Positions 27,065 to 30,545 of a stretch of DNA of 32,478 bases are shown here, in pieces. Positions within the stretch are counted from its first letter, which is position 1, and every line of letters starts with the position of its first letter. The notes beneath the pieces are model-generated. The model made no database searches and had not been told where the DNA came from. It saw only the letters and a program-made list of their open reading frames with translations. This DNA is from Falsirhodobacter sp. alg1 (GTDB taxonomy: Bacteria > Pseudomonadota > Alphaproteobacteria > Rhodobacterales > Rhodobacteraceae): NCBI RefSeq assembly GCF_000739715.2, contig NZ_BBJC02000005.1, positions 1-32,478 of the forward strand. The letters are read 5' to 3'. A program made the translations under genes and the position numbers.

Positions 27065-27730
27065 TCAACCGGCGACTTCAATCCTCAAGCTGGTAATTTC
27101 CGGCGAAACCAGCCTGCTGAGGCTGAGCAATCGTAACGACAGATGTGTTTCAACATATGATGCATGGAAACGCGACGGTGCAAGTAGCCTCATCTCACCC
27201 GCCTCTAACACCATGGGCTGCAGTTGCCGGGCCCAAGTGGTGTAGAGAAGGGGCGAGTCTGCGGCTAAGGCCTGCAGCAAACGGTCCCATGGGGTGCTGC
27301 CCTCTGGAGCAGGAAAGGGAATAACATTGAGCGTCCCCGTGGGGACAGACGTTTCGGAGAGACGGTTTACGAGATCGCTTCCCACAGCAGGCCAATGGGC
27401 GCGTGTGTCTTCGAGTAACTTTGCAATACCCAGACTATATTCGCTCACCCTACCCCTGGCACCCTGTCTGCGAAGTACCAACCACCCTTTTTCACGCAGC
27501 TTCGCCATTTGGCGTTTGACAGTCCGTTCGTCTACAGACCACAGAGCAGCAATTTCCCGTTGTCCTGTTGAAAGGCGATCAGCGCGCCAATCATATCTTG
27601 CTGTGATAAGTACCATCAATCGCAGCGCAGTTTGTCGGTCGGTGGTTTCACCGGCAAGACCGGCAGCGCCGAGCGCGGTGAGGAGATCGTATTTTCTTGA
27701 TGAAGCCCCCTGCCCCACAAGCCGTGCCAT
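27065..27730 (-). CDS. DnaA-like plasmid replication initiator
   Basis: A 221-residue probable replicase. Residues about 53-97 are a winged helix (STGQREIAALWSVDERTVKR and wing LRRQGARGRVSEYSL). Residues about 148-207 resemble DnaA domain I: WDRLLQALAADSPLLYTTWA, then LAPSRFHASYVETHL. There is no AAA+ or DnaA domain IV. Small replicases of this 'DnaA-like' kind define a plasmid group in Rhodobacteraceae and lie next to parAB, as here. The C-terminal part may recruit helicase and the winged helix bind the origin (inference). ATG at 27730 is preferred to 27736 because AAGG lies at good spacing only for it. A copy of the 16-bp palindrome lies in codons for VPTGT (129-133). Confidence 0.78.
   Translation of the reverse strand: MARLVGQGASSRKYDLLTALGAAGLAGETTDRQTALRLMVLITARYDWRADRLSTGQREIAALWSVDERTVKRQMAKLREKGWLVLRRQGARGRVSEYSLGIAKLLEDTRAHWPAVGSDLVNRLSETSVPTGTLNVIPFPAPEGSTPWDRLLQALAADSPLLYTTWARQLQPMVLEAGEMRLLAPSRFHASYVETHLSLRLLSLSRLVSPEITSLRIEVAG
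27332..27347. repeat. parS-like palindrome, copy A (in replicase gene)
   Basis: cGTCCCCGTGGGGACa: 14-bp core 27333-27346 with one central G/T difference from a perfect palindrome. Its first base differs from the other copies. Confidence 0.7.
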
Positions 27731-27959
27731 CGCCATGCCTTATGCCCACTCACTCTTAAAGCCTGCCGACATGACATCGGTAAGGCCGTTCCCTCGTTAC
27801 GCCCAGAATCGTCTCGTCCCGGTTTGGAATAACTTACTTCACCCCGCCCTTTGATGACAACGCTTTTTCTGTGCCAAAATTTATTAGCGTTGGATCAAGC
27901 GGTTTTGTTGATAGCAAGCGGACATGTGTCATCAAAATCAATAAGTGAGGTAATATAGG

Positions 27960-27990
27960 TATAGGGGGACACCATGAGTGTCCCCCTATA
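27960..27990. repeat. 31-bp inverted repeat with 13-bp arms
   Basis: TATAGGGGGACAC (27960-27972) and GTGTCCCCCTATA (27978-27990) are perfect complements around CATGA. The GGGGACA/TGTCCCC half-sites are the same as in the 16-bp palindromes but face the other way. No T-tract follows, so it is more likely a protein-binding or origin structure than a terminator. Confidence 0.7.
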
Positions 27991-28053
27991 GGACGGATAC
28001 TGTCCCGCAGTTGCGCTAGTTATGTAAATGTTTGTCCTATATTCGGACCCATA

Positions 28054-28069
28054 TGTCCCCGTGGGGACA
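28054..28069. repeat. parS-like palindrome, copy B (origin region)
   Basis: TGTCCCCGTGGGGACA in the gap before parA, with a G/T centre in place of G/C. Confidence 0.75.
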
Positions 28070-28161
28070 GAATTTCCATATCAATGTATATATTCTTTGC
28101 GTTATTTCTGAAACACGCTTAAATCGGTACTTACCGTATTTTAGCGTTGGCAGGAGCACGA

Positions 28162-29466
28162 ATGTTTACTCACGAAGATCTGGCGCGGCTGCAGGGGCAG
28201 TCATTGAAAATGCAGGGCTGGATCCGGCAGCAGACATACTCCCCGGATATGGAAAAAACCCTGCGGCGGTTTTCGAGTTGGGAGTTGGCAGAACTGATTT
28301 TGCGGGTGAACCAGTCAACGCTGCGAGGCCGCATGGCGACGGACCCTAGCCTGCCGCAGGGTCTGGTCGAAGAAGACGGGCGTCAGCGTTGGTACACCTT
28401 AGAGGAAATCAACGAAATCCGTCGTCGGTTAAAGATCAACAGGAAGTCGCTCCTGCCCCCTCGCCCGCAAGGCAAGCGGGCGATCCGTGCGGCAATTGCC
28501 AATTTCAAAGGGGGGGCAGGCAAATCGACCGTTGCGCTTCACTTTGCACATGCCGCTGCCTTGGATGGATACCGTGTATTGGCCGTCGATTTTGATCCGC
28601 AGGCAACCTTGTCCCATTCGATGGGTCTTTCGGATGTCGCGGAGGAGGTGACCGTCTGGGGTATCATGGCGCGCGATCTCATTCGCGAAACAGAGCGTAT
28701 GAATAATGCCGCGCGCGGCGCGGAAAGTGGCGTGGCCCTGCCCGAGCGTAAATTGCCAAGCTCTATTACTGGCATGGGCCTGACCGAGTTGAGGACCAAG
28801 GACTTCATCAAGCCAACGTCTTGGCCAACGGTTGATGTGATCCCCTCTTGTGCGAATGCTGCATTTGTCGAGTTTGCAAGCGCCCAGTATCGTAACCTTA
28901 ACCCAGAGTGGTCATTTTTTGCTGCGGTCTCGCGGTATCTCGATACCATCCCTGCCGATGATTATGACCTCGTCATCTTTGATTGCCCACCTGCCATTGG
29001 CTACCAGTCCATGAACGCCGTTTTTGCGGCGGACGTTCTCTATGTCCCGTCAGGCCCTGGCTATTGGGAGTATGATTCCACAACGTCATTTATCGGACAG
29101 CTAGCTGAGGCGTTGGCTGACCTGAGCCAATTCCAAGGGATTGTCCCCGCGGGGACAATGACTTTGCCAAAAACGTTTCTTGATTTGCGTTTCCTTCTCA
29201 CACGGTTCGAACCCAACAACGATCTGCATCGCGCCATGCACCAGGCATTCCGCAAGGTATTCGAGGGCCGCGTGGCCGAGCATCCGATTGAGATGACCCG
29301 TGCGGTCGAGCAGTCGGGCCGTTTCCTCGCTTCAATCTATGAAACTGACTACCGAGAAATGACCCGCGAGACCTGGCGACGCGCACGAGCTTCGTTTGAT
29401 CGTGCATATCTAGAGTTCCGCGATAATCTCGTCACCGCATGGGATAAACTGGAGGATGAAGCATGA
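28162..29466 (+). CDS. parA: ParA family plasmid partition ATPase
   Basis: A 434-residue partition ATPase. The N-terminal 100 residues carry a DNA-binding HTH-like region (ELAELILRVNQSTLRGRM, RWYTLEEINEIRRRL), as in RepA/type Ia ParA proteins, which can also repress their own operon. The deviant Walker A KGGAGKST is at 116-123, followed by VLAVDFDPQATLS, and the Walker B region is DYDLVIFDCPPAIGY. ATG at 28162 has AGGAG 6 bases upstream and is preferred over TTG at 28147. A 16-bp palindrome lies in codons for VPAGT (328-332). The stop overlaps the parB start by ATGA. Confidence 0.93.
   Translation: MFTHEDLARLQGQSLKMQGWIRQQTYSPDMEKTLRRFSSWELAELILRVNQSTLRGRMATDPSLPQGLVEEDGRQRWYTLEEINEIRRRLKINRKSLLPPRPQGKRAIRAAIANFKGGAGKSTVALHFAHAAALDGYRVLAVDFDPQATLSHSMGLSDVAEEVTVWGIMARDLIRETERMNNAARGAESGVALPERKLPSSITGMGLTELRTKDFIKPTSWPTVDVIPSCANAAFVEFASAQYRNLNPEWSFFAAVSRYLDTIPADDYDLVIFDCPPAIGYQSMNAVFAADVLYVPSGPGYWEYDSTTSFIGQLAEALADLSQFQGIVPAGTMTLPKTFLDLRFLLTRFEPNNDLHRAMHQAFRKVFEGRVAEHPIEMTRAVEQSGRFLASIYETDYREMTRETWRRARASFDRAYLEFRDNLVTAWDKLEDEA
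29142..29157. repeat. parS-like palindrome, copy C (in parA)
   Basis: TGTCCCCGCGGGGACA, a perfect palindrome that extends to 18 bp (29141-29158). Confidence 0.75.
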
Positions 29467-30545
29467 AACGACGCACATTCGACATAGATTTCCCGGAACC
29501 GTCTGTCCCCGCGGGGACAGATGTGGCCAAGGATCGCGATGTGCGACGGGGCCCCATGGCAACTGCCATTACCGAAAACGCAGATGCACTGCGCGAGCGG
29601 CAGGTCGCGGAAGCGAAAATCCGGGCAGAAAACGACCGTTTGGCGCATGAATTGGTGCGCCTCAAAAAGCTTGGCCTTATAACAGATCTGATATCACTAG
29701 ACCTTATCCATGCGGAAAAACTGACCAGAGATCGCGCAGTCGAGCGTGACCCGGACTTGGATGAACTCAAGAATTCAATTCTTGCTGTTGGCCTGTCGAA
29801 CCCAATTCGGGTGGAGGCTGATGGAAAGGGTGGATACGAACTCGTCCAAGGGTTCCGGCGATTGGCGGCTTATCGCGAGTTGTACGAGGATACTGGCGAA
29901 GATCGGTTCGCAACGATCCCGGCAGGACTCATCACTGCGGGTGAGACATTGGAATCTCTGTATCGGCGGATGGTTGATGAAAACCTTGTTCGCCGGGATA
30001 TCAGTTTTTCGGAAATGGCAGTTTTAGCAAAAAACTACGTGACTGATGTTGGCACTGCGGCGACGTCGCTGGATCAGGCGATTGCAACATTGTTCCAGTC
30101 GGCGGGGCGGCAGAAAAGGATCTACATCCGGAACTTCGCAACGTTGCTTGATCGCATAGGAATGCACCTGTCGTTTCCGCACGCTATGCCGCGGGCCTTG
30201 GGCCTGGATGTTCTAAAGCGGATGGAGCGTGAGCCTGGTGCTGCAAATATGCTCGCACGTCTTTTGACGCAGAATGTCGAAAAGACGGAAGCAGATGAAT
30301 TGCGCATTCTTCGGGATTTTGCCGCCGGGGCAGGGAAAGCGGCACCCGCCCGTACGCCGCGGGGTCCGGGAAACCCGGGTGCAAAAACTACGCTACGCGT
30401 CGCACGAGGTGAGGATGTAGCACGGTGCGTCGCAACGCATGGCCGCGTCGAACTGAGGATGGAACGCGATTTCAGTGTGATTGACCGACACCGGCTGGAG
30501 CAAGCAATCGAGGCGTTCCTCGAAGCACTCGATGAAAGATCCTGA
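29463..30545 (+). CDS. parB: ParB/RepB family plasmid partition protein
   Basis: A 360-residue centromere-binding partition protein. The N-terminus MKRRTFDIDFP resembles the ParA-interacting tail. Residues about 35-70 look like a charged coiled-coil. The ParB nucleotide/DNA domain begins near 77, with GFRRLAAYRELYEDTGE (130 on) as the CTP-binding-like box and NLVRRDISFSEMA as the second conserved box; the HTH is farther on (SLDQAIATLFQSAGRQKRIY). The C-terminal part likely dimerises. The start shares ATGA with parA. A perfect 20-bp palindrome lies within codons 14-20. Confidence 0.92.
   Translation: MKRRTFDIDFPEPSVPAGTDVAKDRDVRRGPMATAITENADALRERQVAEAKIRAENDRLAHELVRLKKLGLITDLISLDLIHAEKLTRDRAVERDPDLDELKNSILAVGLSNPIRVEADGKGGYELVQGFRRLAAYRELYEDTGEDRFATIPAGLITAGETLESLYRRMVDENLVRRDISFSEMAVLAKNYVTDVGTAATSLDQAIATLFQSAGRQKRIYIRNFATLLDRIGMHLSFPHAMPRALGLDVLKRMEREPGAANMLARLLTQNVEKTEADELRILRDFAAGAGKAAPARTPRGPGNPGAKTTLRVARGEDVARCVATHGRVELRMERDFSVIDRHRLEQAIEAFLEALDERS
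29502..29521. repeat. parS-like palindrome, copy D (in parB)
   Basis: The 16-bp core TGTCCCCGCGGGGACA (29504-29519) extends to a perfect 20-bp palindrome, 40 bases into parB. Confidence 0.78.

Follow-up and report, generated by a model that had tools for sequence, protein, structure and literature searches.

The contig of Falsirhodobacter sp. alg1 studied here carries a replicase gene and the partition genes parA and parB, together with four short palindromes that lie within these genes and in the space between them. We propose, with a probability of roughly 0.93, that these palindromes are the parS centromere set of a DnaA-like type I replicon and the predicted targets of its ParB protein. 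The window, i.e., the whole stretch of DNA that was analysed, spans positions 1 to 32,478 of a contig of 344,941 bases in a 2.92 Mb draft genome (2,921,973 bases, 154 contigs). An original prediction made from these letters had already suggested ParB-binding centromere sites, and comparison of the window with its plasmid family strongly supports this suggestion.

Four palindromes and their plasmid family

A mismatch search of the window with TGTCCCCGYGGGGACA (up to three mismatches) returned exactly four places, at 27332, 28054, 29142 and 29504, the same four that had been predicted. Counted on both strands these are eight matches, against a maximum of seven in 100 shuffles. The copies, A to D in this order, have 12, 14, 16 and 16 self-complementary bases out of 16: C and D are perfect, as the original prediction had said, while the centre of B is asymmetric (GT) and A shows the same centre and, in addition, a C replacing the first T. 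Copy A (27332..27347) lies in the replicase gene and covers codons 131–135 of that gene's strand, copy B (28054..28069) lies in the gap between replicase and parA, about 100 bp ahead of the parA start, copy C (29142..29157) covers parA codons 328–332, and copy D (29504..29519) covers codons 15–19 in the variable N-terminus of parB. Codon reading of the coding copies gives ETS-VPTGT-LNV in the replicase (on its own strand), QGI-VPAGT-MTL in ParA and EPS-VPAGT-DVA in ParB. All three thus begin a codon at GTC and share one phase, in agreement with the VPAGT or VPTGT reading proposed before. A scan of all 154 contigs of the draft genome found no further match within one mismatch and a single place, on contig C9 and on one strand only, at two mismatches. 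The scatter of copies over the genome that the original prediction had named as evidence against itself is therefore absent from this draft genome; certain other genomes, which also have a ParB of the family, do carry the site dispersed along the chromosome.

For comparison, 188 related modules were collected from named contigs and genomes, the window included, and 169 were left after removal of identical ParB matches; the window is locus L248 of these. The 80 named loci were the most similar ones out of 458, ParB start codons were assigned automatically, and eight outgroup loci were excluded from the family counts, which leaves 161 family loci. A de novo search without any given motif, for perfect 14-base palindromes occurring at least twice per locus in the 188 loci, returned GTCCCCG most often (97 loci), followed by TTCCCCG (42), TTATCCG (4) and TTACCC(A or G) (3); two other motifs appeared in one locus each, and 40 of the 188 loci yielded none. 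With any centre allowed, the four arm types provide at least one perfect-arm site in 158 of the 169 loci (158 of the 161 family loci) and at least two in 150. Altogether, 616 perfect-arm sites were counted in 1.48 Mb, compared to none for the reversed motif and to a median of 0 and a maximum of 4 for permuted half-site sets (n = 178). The 11 loci without perfect sites are the eight outgroup loci, with ParB proteins 31–36% identical to that of the window, and L142, L224 and L235; the sites of L224 have one mismatch and those of L235 are hybrid.

Members of Leisingera, Salipiger and Alloyangia hold up to 12 copies per locus, located before, within and past parA and parB. Besides parA codon 328, recurrent places are parB codons 15, 315 and 293–294, the gap ahead of parA, where intergenic palindromes were found repeatedly in relatives, and the region 3' of parB. 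In 48 of the 169 loci, parB codon 15 carries a copy with perfect arms in the phase seen in the window. Codon 131 of the replicase gene bears a copy in six of the 169 loci, three of which belong to the genus of the window, with perfect arms in the window, L042 and L243 and one mismatch in L031, L032 and L150.

Fixed places, changing letters and constrained codons

The alignment of homologous plasmids that the original prediction had called for reveals that the place of the parA site is kept. Codon 328 falls within the parA match in 158 of the 161 family loci, and a palindrome with no more than one arm mismatch stands there in 149 of these 158 (with perfect arms in 132). Within a plasmid, moreover, the letters agree, since a single arm type is used throughout by 144 of the 150 loci that have at least two perfect sites. 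Homologous positions and letters that switch in concert across the family speak against a palindrome spreading by insertion, which had been considered as an alternative. They also render it hardly credible that a mobile or self-spreading palindromic repeat, akin to repetitive extragenic palindromes (REP), landed in these genes, even though copies occur both inside and outside genes.

As a consequence of the letters shared throughout a plasmid, ParA residues 328–332 differ by arm type and are mostly VPAGT, FPAGK, LPTGK or LSADK. Eight outgroup ParA proteins without the palindrome carry unrelated residues at that place. In the GTCCCC set (86 sequences), parA codons 328–331 rank 1–4 of 195 conserved multi-codon positions for single-codon use: Gly331 is encoded by GGG, though GGC is usual at 16 of the 19 other Gly positions of parA, and Thr by ACA, though ACC is usual at 15 of the 17 other Thr positions. 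The same four codons rank 1–4 of 206 in the TTACCC set (15 sequences, ties included). This codon test is partly circular, because the typing of each locus drew on its own sites, among them the parA copy; most loci have several sites besides this copy. The original prediction had proposed selection on the DNA at the expense of the protein, and both the codon ranks and the residues that change with the palindrome letters support such selection in the coding copies. The converse explanation, in which a protein motif V/F/L-P-x-G-x is conserved and the palindrome is its by-product, could draw on the frequent Pro-x-Gly at ParA 329–331 in the family. It is most improbable, however, as few synonymous positions of parA vary as little as those there, three of four TTATCC-type plasmids have the peptide LSADK, the outgroup proteins differ as described, and the same letters also occur between genes.

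Across the family, interior coding copies mostly have the phase seen in the window (248 of 264 of those with perfect arms), and so do 11 of 13 bins when the copies are grouped crudely by three-codon position, some of these bins being adjacent. This preference is partly forced, because the +1 phase of TTACCC or TTATCC letters would hold an in-frame TAA. The copies in parA, parB and replicase would be kept because their DNA letters are needed, and those codons would therefore follow the centromere.

One locus, L235 of genome G301, has six sites that are all hybrid, combining one TTCCCC arm with one TTACCC arm, in both orientations. Its ParB falls within the TTACCC clade. The sites of Antarctobacter pSMS3-1, the closest relative found among plasmids, whose ParB is 68% identical, are of the symmetric TTACCC kind. 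L235, a single case, may represent a plasmid caught between two letter types.

ParB, the replicase and the letters of the sites

Multiple conserved palindromes near parAB co-vary with ParB. On the ParB tree the arm type changes nine times, compared to at least 52 changes in each of 100 label shuffles. When the comparison was limited to the 138 loci that have all three genes, arm type needed seven changes on the ParB tree, seven on the ParA tree and 11 on the replicase tree, part of whose extra changes may be noise because the replicase is a short protein. In classical iteron plasmids, inverted versions of the iterons act as operator or handcuffing sites of the replicase and control copy number, and the palindromes could be such sites. 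The window does contain an inverted pair of iteron-like elements, TATAGGGGGACAC-n5-GTGTCCCCCTATA (27960..27990), which is probably a replicase or origin site and not parS. The consensus of these elements, TGTCCCCCAATA, has 232 matches in 146 intergenic regions, against 18 in one letter shuffle, and shares the seven letters TGTCCCC with the GTCCCC-type half-site TGTCCCCG; one palindrome, furthermore, lies within the replicase gene itself. Yet the iteron-like elements keep G ahead of TCCC in 67 of 67 matches from plasmids with the three remaining arm types (TTCCCC 39/39, TTACCC 22/22, TTATCC 6/6). The palindrome letters follow neither iterons nor replicase, and the palindromes therefore belong with ParB. 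The better fit of palindrome type to the ParB and ParA trees, the up to 12 copies per locus around and within both partition genes, and the match of ParB residues to site letters described below, which an operator would leave unexplained, likewise make a replicase operator very unlikely. Of the possible link to replication control raised by the original prediction, the shared TGTCCCC stands and may leave room for cross-talk in GTCCCC plasmids, but this link is no more than suggestive, given that the iterons keep their G beside other palindrome letters.

In relatives, the stretch separating replicase from parA includes a conserved block, CGATTCTGTCAAG, with its 10-mers in 114–118 of the 146 regions. 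Its minus strand reads CTTGACAGAATCG, perhaps the −35 region of a replicase promoter; by eye, the block was not seen in the window's own intergenic sequence.

A scan of ParB columns against site letters singled out residue 216. Taking each locus's commonest outer bases, Arg216 goes with TG in 85 loci, CG in five, and GG and GT in one each, Tyr216 with CT (44/44), Pro216 with TT (15/15), Lys216 with GT (4/4) and Ala216 with TT (3/3). Grouped into classes (R or K with G, Y with C, P or A with T) that were defined post hoc, with the data already seen, residue 216 fits the outer bases in every locus (158 of 158), and the next best column in 141. At position 217, all 133 loci with Gln have C as the third base, and all 13 with Thr or Val have A. 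Named plasmids fit this pattern of residues 216–217: RQ with GTCCCC in Phaeobacter inhibens pPGA1_262, YT with TTACCC in the R. pomeroyi megaplasmid, and KQ with GTTCCCC in two Sulfitobacter type I plasmids. In the window the two residues are Arg216 and Gln217 (codons at 30108..30113, plus strand), the first residues of a recognition helix modelled at 216–235 (mean predicted local distance difference test score 82.5). Among solved structures, the best matches to the ParB model are Noc proteins, led by the Noc–DNA complex 7ol9, and Caulobacter ParB 6t1f; the structure alignment took in 57 ParB sequences. Lys171, Ser172 and Arg173 of Caulobacter ParB contact parS, and Arg173 bonds guanine 1, according to PMC7383237. 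Equating 216–217 with Caulobacter 171–172 was done by eye, because the profile comparison of the window's ParB with the host's chromosomal ParB aligned the N-domain only.

We therefore envisage the following scenario for the centromere. A ParB dimer would sit on each 16-bp palindrome, with one helix-turn-helix per half-site TGTCCCCG, and Arg216, which opens the recognition helix, would together with Gln217 read the outer G and the third base. The expected target would be the 16-mer TGTCCCCGCGGGGACA, in preference to CTTCCCCGCGGGGAAG, TTTCCCCGCGGGGAAA, GTTCCCCGCGGGGAAC and CTTACCCGCGGGTAAG. By analogy with other ParB proteins, ParB would then load as a cytidine triphosphate (CTP) clamp, and ParA would separate the plasmid copies. 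If the specificity of ParB shifted in a lineage, the dispersed copies would shift too, and the host proteins would be rewritten along with them.

Besides the partly circular codon test, the post hoc residue classes and the possible noise in the replicase tree, several observations weigh against the centromere interpretation or parts of it. Near-identical loci stay among the 169 and are included in the counts, and L142 has no recognised site. The parA-328 copy is absent in nine of 158 loci; these are wider relatives, and the loss of sites in close homologues, which the original prediction had named as counter-evidence, was not found in the closest ones. Six of the 158 loci have mixed arm types; in L162, L166, L173, L177 and L181 a palindrome at parA codon 64 is TTACCC while the other copies are TTATCC, which explains five of these six. 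The codon signal is weaker in the TTCCCC set (45 sequences), with Ala330 at rank 1, Gly331 at rank 3 and Pro329 at rank 19 of 185. As to the residues, the majority of outer bases is weak in some loci (L163 5/10, L188 3/8, L059 4/8), and L203, with Arg216 and GTTCCCC, agrees only when G is accepted at either of the two outer positions. Residue 217 is Ser or Asn in 12 loci with mixed letters, Ser going with several. Phylogenetically independent contrasts number three to four and all agree, too few for significance at 216 or 217. The ParB model has a predicted template-modelling score of 0.50 and low TM-scores to its PDB matches. Finally, in one other genome (G024) four copies lie dispersed, and none of the five candidates scored, out of 24, was a family ParB.

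The module, dispersed palindromes and known systems

The replicase gene (27065..27736, minus strand) encodes a DnaA-like protein of 223 amino acids, assigned by a weak DnaA_N match (23.8 bits, cut-off 24.6) and by tblastn relatives; its helix-turn-helix matches are sub-threshold as well. By tblastn, 289 plasmid records match, the best being Falsirhodobacter algicola with 71% identity over 89% of the query. On the plus strand follow parA (28162..29466), coding for a Walker-type partition ATPase of 434 amino acids, and parB (29463..30545), coding for 360 amino acids with a ParB_N domain (25.0 bits, slightly below the cut-off of 26.3) and a helix-turn-helix. The parB start overlaps the parA end by four bases; the cognate parA and parB of the palindromes are adjacent. 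A small replicase with weak similarity to the DnaA N-terminus and adjoining parAB genes are the features of the DnaA-like I group. The replicase is 45.5% identical to those of two plasmids typed DnaA-like-I, compared to 39% for one typed DnaA-like-II, and ParB is 47–53% identical to DnaA-like-I and 31% to DnaA-like-II counterparts (typing from Table 1 of PMC9025767). The module thus appears to be a DnaA-like type I Rhodobacteraceae replicon, for which autonomous replication and incompatibility within the group are predicted. The motifs GxRR and ENxxR mark the CTPase family of ParB proteins. ParB combines the ParB_N fold with both of them, and G130, R132, R133, E173, N174 and R177 are invariant in both ParB alignments. 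We therefore assign it to this family and predict CTP binding. The host's chromosomal ParB has GERR and ENIQR at the corresponding motifs. The chromosomal parS, TGTTTCACGTGAAACA, lies on contig C1 and adjoins this different ParB.

Among 384 family genomes, the exact 14-mer of the GTCCCC type occurs in 40 and that of the TTCCCC type in 45, and 36 and 39 of these, respectively, also have a family ParB with an E-value of 1e-90 or lower (tallied from lists). The ten genomes with a 14-mer and without such a ParB hold single copies, except for G024 with its four. By the same tally, the genomes with an exact 14-mer hold 1–9 copies each, with eight exceptions. There are 33 copies in G064, and 93 in G093 and 65 in G276 with the pattern KTCCCCRYGGGGAM (89 and 64 as exact GTCCCC 14-mer), while the reversed-motif control gave 0 in all three. 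In G064, 32 copies lie on a 4.15 Mb contig, with 17 of 23 clusters in the half nearer the chromosomal parS, which was taken as the origin (Kolmogorov–Smirnov p 0.008), or 16 of 22 when the parB locus was excluded (binomial p 0.026). Such copy numbers, and a 3' flank common to three G276 copies, would be expected of a REP-like repeat. However, the exact 14-mers mostly go with a family ParB, as the above tallies show. The flanks are mostly unrelated (copies read: 15/33 in G064, 14/93 in G093, 15/65 in G276), apart from those three copies and a symmetric AAAC/GTTT extension at many G064 sites.

In the ParB open frames of the three genomes with dispersed sites, the conserved N-terminal arm was not seen by eye. 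Pfam was run on ten chosen open frames beside these ParB genes; no parA match was found within the 5.8 kb examined around the G064 and G093 genes, and G276 has a divergent ParA gene beside its family ParB. Each of these ParB proteins has the 216–217 pair expected for its letters, all three being among the loci that gave the rule (the loci of the G064:C1, G093 and G276 sets are L204, L205, L207, L249–L263 and L287–L306). A plasmid ParB–parS family may have turned into chromosome-wide DNA marking in some Rhodobacteraceae, acting like Noc in nucleoid occlusion, a tentative idea that we would put below even odds; the dispersed sets are a lead toward such a role and not a demonstration. Five further genomes (G007, G111, G067, G295 and G118) have 14–17 exact copies each, part of which, among the matches listed, sit on other contigs, far away from the plasmid module.

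Cells holding two letter types would bear on compatibility. In our tally, none of the 384 genomes has at least two exact copies of both GTCCCCGCGGGGAC and TTCCCCGCGGGGAA, and these genomes therefore provide no compatibility test; G080 and G331 have one of the two sequences several times and the second only once. Sulfitobacter pontiacus DSM 110277 combines one plasmid of type I (GTTCCCCGCGGGGAAC) with one of type II (GTTACCCATGGGTAAC), as typed in Table 1 of PMC9025767. Type II plasmid pDSM110277_b (L312) and six of the eight outgroup loci (L213–L218) have repeated palindromes of their own that are distinct from type I, namely GTTACCCATGGGTAAC, GTAACCC-type and GTTACCG-type.

The nearest known systems are P. 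inhibens pPGA1_262 and Sulfitobacter pDSM110277_c and pDSM14862_b, which like the window have adjacent parA and parB. The two Sulfitobacter plasmids share the divergent DnaA_N-type replicase, at 45.5% identity to that of the window (the stretch of pPGA1_262 read did not include its replicase). All three have palindromes of the same family, with the window's GTCCCC arms in pPGA1_262, while the Sulfitobacter pair differ in having GTTCCCC. The conserved palindromes of DnaA-like plasmids were reportedly proposed as partition anchors by Petersen and colleagues in 2011, and the parS idea itself is probably not new. For RepABC plasmids, PMC5613091 and PMC9040568 describe comparable features: palindromes specific to compatibility groups and bound by a ParB homologue (PMC5613091), a single symmetric exchange that separates palindrome groups 1 and 2, and suggested selection for parS even inside coding sequence (PMC9040568). 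The Sulfitobacter DnaA-like sites GTTCCCCGCGGGGAAC also meet the repABC consensus GTTNNNNGCNNNNAAC given in PMC9040568. The window, in contrast, has another replicase and TGT..ACA ends that do not fit GTTNNNNGCNNNNAAC, and in Rhodobacterales repABC plasmids parS tends to sit between repB and repC and behind repC, unlike in the window. Chromosomal ParB–parS and the Noc protein with its binding site share the 16-bp palindrome and the ParB_N plus helix-turn-helix fold, and specificity set at DNA-contacting helices (PMC7383237) is a further likeness to the window's ParB; the letters of the window's palindromes differ from those of chromosomal parS such as the host's TGTTTCACGTGAAACA.

A literal literature search for five palindrome strings returned one unrelated maize paper only, and a search for Noc-like proteins in Alphaproteobacteria brought up a single review. 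A limited search found no description of concerted rewriting, the residue rule or genomes with 33–93 copies, and nothing on the coding positions or concerted change of palindromes in DnaA-like I plasmids. The centromere is thus well supported and of a known kind, while its evolutionary detail was not found described. Five ParA residues dictated, across dozens of genera, by a centromere copy within the gene itself would be a clean natural case of a DNA site overruling protein sequence. The family offers ready material for understanding how a DNA-binding protein and its many dispersed sites switch specificity together. If the residue rule is true, the letters of parS, and perhaps plasmid compatibility, would be predictable from the ParB sequence.

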